Made by a program: the position numbers and the translations under genes. DNA of 64,000 nucleotides from Ampullaceana balthica (lineage: Eukaryota > Mollusca > Gastropoda > Lymnaeidae): the NCBI GenBank assembly GCA_944989445.1, contig CALYLW010000496.1, positions 385,810 to 449,809 of the forward strand, in the 5' to 3' direction. This document shows positions 5,112 through 62,821 of the stretch, piece after piece; positions within the stretch are counted from its first letter, which is position 1, and every line of letters starts with the position of its first letter. The notes under the pieces are model-generated. The model saw nothing but the letters and a program-made list of their open reading frames with translations, did not search any database and was not told the origin of the DNA.

Positions 5112-5212
5112 CTCTTTTTCTCCAGATGAGTCGCTGGCTAGAGACGTGTTGCTACCATTGTGTCCAGCAGCAGCAGCAACAGAGAGCTCATTGGGGTTGT
5201 GAGGCATGGCTA
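5112..5212 (-). CDS. DOCK9/10/11: DOCK-D exon 32, last exon in window
   Basis: 101 bp: two bases plus 33 codons. Acceptor CTCTACAG, donor GAG|GTGGGG. SNTSLASDSSGEKE resembles 'SRASLASLDSNPSTNEKSSEK' of DOCK10. A run of Ala is encoded by GCTGCTGCTGCT. The 5-kb satellite starts 27 nt past the donor. The remaining third of the protein, including DHR2, lies outside. Confidence 0.85.

Positions 5213-62821: not shown

Follow-up and report, generated by a model that had tools for sequence, protein, structure and literature searches.

Tandem repeats that span exon-intron boundaries were named mirages in the amphioxus Adh3 gene and were also found in the amphioxus globin genes BflGb6 and BflGb9 (PMC3087553). 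In the accessible part of that report, mirages occur at both the 5′ and the 3′ boundaries, have units of 10-72 and 150-160 bp, keep the AG or GT intact in many but not all copies, and differ in copy number between haplotypes; furthermore, RT-PCR suggests that regular splicing is undisturbed (PMC3087553). The amphioxus PGBD5 and troponin C genes also carry mirages, and an annotated lancelet PGBD5 exon is suspected to consist of such repeats, according to the accessible text of a second report (PMC3902484). In addition, new introns have been described as arising where segments that bear AG/GT are duplicated in tandem (Rogers, 1989, Gao and Lynch, 2009, both as cited in the part of PMC3087553 available to us). 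An earlier note on the present DNA, made from the letters alone, knew of no described system of this kind; the amphioxus mirages precede it, as the accessible parts of both reports make plain (PMC3087553, PMC3902484). A literature search that covered little subscription content returned no mollusc report of such repeats in titles or abstract openings. What is new here is the density of these arrays in one gene and the mollusc setting; the kind itself is known.

A predicted snail DOCK9 gene and its repeat arrays

The window, by which we mean the whole stretch of 64,000 bp that was analysed (C496:385810-449809, in a genome of 1.10 Gb), is taken up by one minus-strand gene, a predicted ortholog of DOCK9 (Table 1). 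Its identity came from exon-like pieces that matched DOCK9 proteins and from a longer query that led to full-length molluscan DOCK9. Exons were placed by aligning the minus strand, with splicing, to DOCK9 proteins of molluscs, an approach that replaced a weaker ab initio exon listing. The final model has 33 predicted exons in the window (32 coding exons and cassette exon 8b), and its product is identical at 1074 of 1337 aligned residues (80%) to the protein of Physella acuta and at 1024 of 1262 (81%) to that of Bulinus truncatus, both Hygrophila, which makes a relative of the freshwater snails the likely host. The downstream exons 33-54, from which three last pieces of 2-12 bp were discarded as spurious, agree with Physella at 792 of 896 aligned residues.

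If each repeated splice site is taken at its exon-side copy, the joined exons give a protein that aligns almost gap-free to those of related snails. Indeed, an alignment gap lies four or fewer residues away from only 1 of 32 exon joins (exons 9-10, unstraddled), as counted in the first 33-exon model, which included a spurious 3-residue exon (later dropped) and a different exon 22 start. The protein alignment of the window exons also reveals no insert in the Physella protein at straddled junctions. We infer that the exon-side splice site is the one used.

Two exons deserve comment. Cassette exon 8b is proline-rich, is present in Bulinus DOCK9 (50% peptide identity over the 90 residues searched) and is missing from the compared Physella protein. 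Exon 22 (window 22406-22490), whose acceptor lies at 22490 after a T-rich tract, is shifted by one base relative to the frame near six consecutive T (22448-22453), so that the joined frame breaks there, likely through an assembly error or an allele. An 824-base query covering exons 18-19 and their intron, used to look for a second, allelic DOCK9 copy, matched only the gene itself outside a dispersed element among the 40 of 2055 candidates scored.

TRF returned 73 rows in the window, of which those with a score of at least 90 and a period of at least 10 were kept and overlaps merged; after exclusion of an array at 63153-63734, beyond exon 1, there are 39 arrays within the gene span. The exon-side edge lies inside an exon in 14 of them (by 2 to 53 bp), at 0-25 bp in 7, at 26-100 bp in 1, at 101-300 bp in 5 and at 301-1000 bp in the other 12. 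The 14 straddling arrays occupy 8 donors and 6 acceptors among the 65 junctions in the window part of the gene; two of them are weak, at acceptor 19 (2 bp, 1.9 copies) and donor 25 (2.6 diverged copies), and that of donor 32 includes only 3 exon bases. In these stacks, the exon end and its GT or AG are repeated on the intron side of the junction. At the donor of exon 32, the array of 21-bp units spans C496:383330-390888 as a whole, with about 360 copies over 7.6 kb of intron 32.

Table 1. Predicted gene features and junction-associated tandem arrays; positions are those of the window unless a contig is named
Feature	Position	Strand	Basis or remark
DOCK9 gene (predicted), coding exons 1-32 and cassette exon 8b	5077..62776	-	spliced alignment, 80% identity to Physella acuta P0107
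DOCK9 exons 33-54 (predicted)	C496:335381-382438, outside window		spliced alignment
Cassette exon 8b	47229..47486	-	258 bp if second of two donors used; phase 0-0; conserved in Bulinus truncatus
Array, 47-bp unit, straddles exon 5 donor	52348..52624	-	25 exon bp in array
Array, 36-bp unit, straddles exon 8 donor	48834..49043	-	19 exon bp
Array, 58-bp unit, straddles cassette exon 8b acceptor	47444..47731	-	43 exon bp
Array, 39-bp unit, straddles exon 14 acceptor	38152..38330	-	10 exon bp
Array, 62-bp unit, straddles exon 14 donor	37908..38088	-	13 exon bp
Array, 45-bp unit, 50 copies, straddles exon 15 acceptor	35377..37625	-	22 exon bp; AG kept in 47/48 matched decoys
Weak 1.9-copy array, exon 19 acceptor	28916..29017	-	ends 2 bp inside exon
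Array, 47-bp unit, straddles exon 19 donor	28732..28872	-	40 exon bp
Array, 37-bp unit, straddles exon 20 acceptor	28459..28603	-	4 exon bp
Array, 68-bp unit, straddles exon 20 donor	27793..28399	-	24 exon bp
Array, 93-bp unit, straddles exon 25 acceptor	19425..19794	-	47 exon bp
Array, 55-bp unit, 2.6 diverged copies, straddles exon 25 donor	19175..19317	-	53 exon bp; GT lost in next copy
Array, 40-bp unit, straddles exon 30 donor	9452..9613	-	9 exon bp
Array, 21-bp unit, exon 32 donor	1..5079	-	starts 3 bp inside exon; extends beyond window
Array, 2 copies, exon 3 acceptor	57625..57697	-	end is exactly the AG of exon 3
Array, 38-bp unit, exon 21 acceptor	27040..27229	-	ends 1 bp before exon edge; AG kept in 2/4 matched decoys
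Array, exon 2 donor	57853..58156	-	starts 23 bp into intron; unit without exon end
Array, exon 9 donor	43155..43774	-	starts 11 bp into intron; unit without exon end
Array, exon 16 donor	31737..32160	-	starts 20 bp into intron; unit without exon end
Array, exon 17 donor	30700..31414	-	starts 9 bp into intron; unit without exon end
Array, exon 31 donor	8259..8653	-	starts 16 bp into intron; unit without exon end

The junctions listed in the earlier note were all recovered once its exon numbers had been converted (1-8 and 25-32 are the same in the model, 9 is 8b and 10-22 are 9-21; it seems to have missed model exon 22): seven of seven straddled donors (model exons 5, 8, 14, 19, 20, 25 and 30, the next copy at 25 being without GT), five of five straddled acceptors (8b, 14, 15, 20 and 25) and six of six donors with an array close by (2 at +23, 9 at +11, 16 at +20, 17 at +9 and 31 at +16, with the array of 32 beginning 3 bp inside the exon). 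Three acceptors come in addition to these 18, namely 19 (weak), 3 (array ending at the AG) and 21 (1 bp off). Its unit range of 36-93 bp proved too narrow, since units of straddling arrays measure 18-93 bp over the whole gene.

The 39-bp unit of the exon 14 acceptor recurs at 40447-40540, 2.1 kb from 38152-38330, with a 355-bp tandem duplication (39504-40191) between the two arrays, which are perhaps one array split by insertion. Two high-copy dispersed elements in the introns, at 32652-33046 and 29140-29411, are each found in at least 39 other places, at 95-99% and 89-95% identity, respectively. Two related open frames on the plus strand (48296-48544 and 51458-51607) resemble BED-type zinc-finger fragments of a DNA transposon.

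Array positions relative to exon edges

Array positions were compared with a null model in which every array is reduced to a single unit and these founder units are placed uniformly in the introns, with a margin of 60 bp inside the exons allowed. Of 38 intron-assigned arrays in the window, 13 straddle a junction, where the model predicts 2.7 over all introns (P = 1e-5, the simulation floor) and 4.5 within their own introns (P = 7e-5). Edges at +25 or nearer number 20, against 4.2 (all introns) and 6.9 (own introns) expected, both with P = 1e-5. A stricter set, requiring at least 2.9 copies and leaving aside the array at the window edge, gives 11 straddling arrays out of 32 (P = 1e-5 for all and 2.9e-4 for own introns). 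The pile-up is also seen at short range: among arrays with edges between -60 and +100, 21 of 22 lie at +25 or nearer, against 10.7 expected (P = 5e-6, floor), and so do 7 of the 8 that are purely intronic (P = 4.6e-4).

The downstream half of the gene, unseen when the earlier note was made, shows the pattern of the window again. Its 28 new arrays include 6 that straddle (donors 35, 37, 47 and 50, acceptors 47 and 51), 6 at 0-25 bp and 2 at 26-100 bp. Straddling exceeds the 1.4 expected over all introns (P = 0.0021), and against the 3.5 expected within own introns the difference is not significant (P = 0.087). Arrays at +25 or nearer exceed both expectations (2.4 for all introns, P = 1e-5; 6.0 for own introns, P = 5.6e-4), and in the short-range control 12 of 14 fall at +25 or nearer (P = 0.0018).

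These comparisons depend on how long the introns were when the arrays arose, and an explanation without any bias follows from this. Arrays might have been born uniformly in introns that were once much shorter, with mobile-element insertions later moving the other arrays away from the exons, which we regard as possible, if rather unlikely. With introns at one third of their present array-free length, own-intron P values in the window become 0.33 for straddling and 0.15 for +25 or nearer (0.028 and 0.003 over all introns), and at one quarter they become 0.75 and 0.57 (0.15 and 0.036 over all introns); in the downstream half, own-intron values already reach 0.55 and 0.05 at half length. Thus, the junction bias would vanish if introns were about one third as long when the arrays arose: the own-intron null at one third to one quarter length gives 11.5-14.2 straddling arrays, close to the 13 observed, and high-copy elements are indeed present in the introns. 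However, removal of dispersed repeats, as families found in 353 kb of the genome, shrinks the introns only to 0.68, a figure in which mobile DNA is a lower bound because copies unrepeated in the 353-kb sample go uncounted. At that length, the expected straddling is 3.9 over all introns (P = 7e-5) or 5.6 within own introns (P = 0.0011), and the expected number at +25 or nearer is 6.1 or 8.7 (P = 1e-5 and 2e-5). The short range also speaks against uniform birth, since arrays at 26-100 bp number 1 against 7 at 0-25 bp in the window, and 2 against 6 downstream. The junction bias outlasts removal of the detectable dispersed repeats; it is weaker in the control genes described below.

Control genes and sister loci

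A search of the same genome with a myosin head gave 80 matches, of which 49 were examined, namely 30 loci with 1.5 kb flanks and 19 further matches in 14 regions with flanks of about 0.6 kb; for ABC transporters, 17 of 24 matches were examined. Exon edges in the control genes were placed manually on the basis of the match and the splice scores, with several left unset, and for the second myosin set and the ABC set the offsets, too, were manual entries. Among the arrays of the first myosin set, 4 of 35 straddle one of 54 usable junctions (0.78 expected, P = 0.0075), and in the second 2 of 6 do, one of them with only 2 exon bases and a twice-seen array being counted once. None of 6 arrays at the ABC exons straddles. 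Over all controls, 6 of 47 arrays straddle against 1.42 expected (P = 0.0027, or 0.013 with a sister pair counted once), and the six fall in few genes: the C208/C719 sister loci, C706 (two exons) and C356. The enrichment at splice sites throughout the genome that the earlier note had proposed is thus borne out in part, in the myosin genes, where straddling arrays (6/41) are rarer than in DOCK9, and not at the ABC exons (0/6). The first myosin set has no arrays at 0-25 bp and three at 26-100 bp, so the accumulation close to exon edges seen in DOCK9 does not recur in that set.

Sister loci, which may be alleles or paralogs, differ in copy number. L024 (C208) and L026 (C719) are 95% identical over 865 bases including the exon, and a donor 32-bp unit has 8.1 copies in the former and a single copy in the latter; likewise, an acceptor 78-bp unit has 4.0 copies in L041 and 2.1 in L040. 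These differences fit duplication in place, and we infer that the direction would be a gain in one locus and not a loss in the other. The suggestion of the earlier note that each array was born locally agrees with the first pair (8 copies against 1). An intronic 44-bp unit located 106 bp from a donor has 11 copies in L033 and one in its sister myosin locus L032, which indicates that array birth is not confined to junctions.

Origin of the arrays and relation to amphioxus mirages

The units of 69 arrays, taken from the window together with the downstream half, were compared in pairs, with one shuffle per pair. Only 4 of 2345 pairs score above every shuffle, and 3 of these 4 are neighbouring arrays of one unit, in keeping with the earlier view that the units are unrelated. 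A single spreading repeat is rejected on this comparison. One mobile repeat inserted beside exons many times is hardly credible: a few arrays have a unit in common with a neighbour (38152 and 40447; 15297 and 16739), but units are otherwise unrelated and have local exon bases inside them.

Decoy splice sites were counted where a copy differs from the genuine site by two or fewer mismatches per flank, more diverged copies being invisible to this test. GT or AG is kept in 75 of 81 matched decoys without donor 32 and in 307 of 318 with it, exon 8b not being in the set. The matched decoys of the window give no sign of a selective purge of decoy splice sites; a pooled comparison, dominated by the 21-bp array, was set aside.

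Selection could instead keep the repeats, through a role of the extra splice sites or of repeat RNA in splicing control or through peptide repeats added when inner sites are used, and the earlier note had allowed that repeated splice sites are favoured. Some in-frame units can be read through in the frame of the exon (the exon 25 array, minus-strand frame 19253-19846), and the accessible part of a study of a C. elegans minisatellite reports over-representation near alternative splicing regions (PMC4039745). However, unit lengths are divisible by 3 in 11 of 26 straddling arrays of DOCK9 and the control genes, close to the third expected by chance, which gives no sign of coding use; furthermore, the units are unrelated in sequence and the Physella protein is without insert at the straddled junctions. 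Maintenance by selection is therefore quite improbable, and the notion of favoured sites is unsupported. A function as protein repeats is likewise unsupported, multiples of 3 not being preferred among unit lengths.

An assembly artefact is very improbable: long-read assemblies can mis-size arrays and the frame of exon 22 is broken by one base next to a run of T, but copies within arrays differ by substitutions, and arrays of this sort are seen again on several contigs, in other genes.

We consider it rather probable that the 14 straddling arrays among the 39 are local tandem duplications, tolerated because splicing probably keeps the exon-side copy. Slippage or break repair would produce a tandem duplication of a short stretch across or beside a junction, which would then expand by unequal exchange. 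At donors the first copy would stay beside the exon, and at acceptors the last, which could leave the mature message as it was, and exon definition would presumably pick the exon-side site. Copies would survive because the outermost site left beside the exon makes them harmless, and duplications inside exons would be removed. The five nearby arrays of the window whose units begin within the intron and exclude the exon end count against this reading. The excess at junctions, superimposed on a minisatellite-rich genome, could reflect either duplication that starts preferentially around exon edges or survival.

Exon edges might even be hot spots of tandem duplication throughout this genome through loss of homology at the edges, a tentative idea that we think unlikely. 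Amphioxus is highly polymorphic, and the idea derives from this. Exons would be short islands of identity between diverged haplotypes, and exchange or repair synthesis would lose homology at exon edges and reseed, so that junctions are copied into arrays. If so, animal genomes of high polymorphism would generate mirages quite generally, in amphioxus as in the snail, and would thereby be kept supplied with spare splice sites from which new introns and exons could be made. A mutational origin of the bias would more generally mean that exon edges are fragile and that splice sites are duplicated again and again, which provides material for intron gain and for new exons. The arrays extend a curiosity of a few amphioxus genes, with numbers, to several genes in the genome of a mollusc, and they call for caution in gene prediction, as the suspicion about the annotated lancelet PGBD5 exon illustrates (PMC3902484).

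The snail arrays can be set against three known systems. In unit length, copy number and homogeneity they resemble ordinary intronic minisatellites, whose exon-side edges, however, are not expected to pile up at junctions. With intron gain by duplication of AG/GT-bearing segments they have tandem copies of splice signals in common, but no new intron was found in the snail gene, where existing introns grow at their edges. Compared with amphioxus mirages, they differ in the mollusc host, in the 14 of 65 junctions straddled in the window part of the gene, in the units of 18-93 bp over the whole gene and in the placement nulls applied; regular splicing is suggested by RT-PCR in amphioxus, and in the snail the protein alignment fits it. 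As in amphioxus, the units consist of the exon end and the adjacent intron end in tandem, both 5′ and 3′ boundaries are duplicated (8 donors and 6 acceptors), AG or GT is kept in many copies though not in all (75 of 81 decoys, donor 32 excluded), and unit length varies by locus, the snail units also being unrelated in sequence. By the defining features compared, as read from the genomic sequence, the snail arrays match mirages of the amphioxus type.
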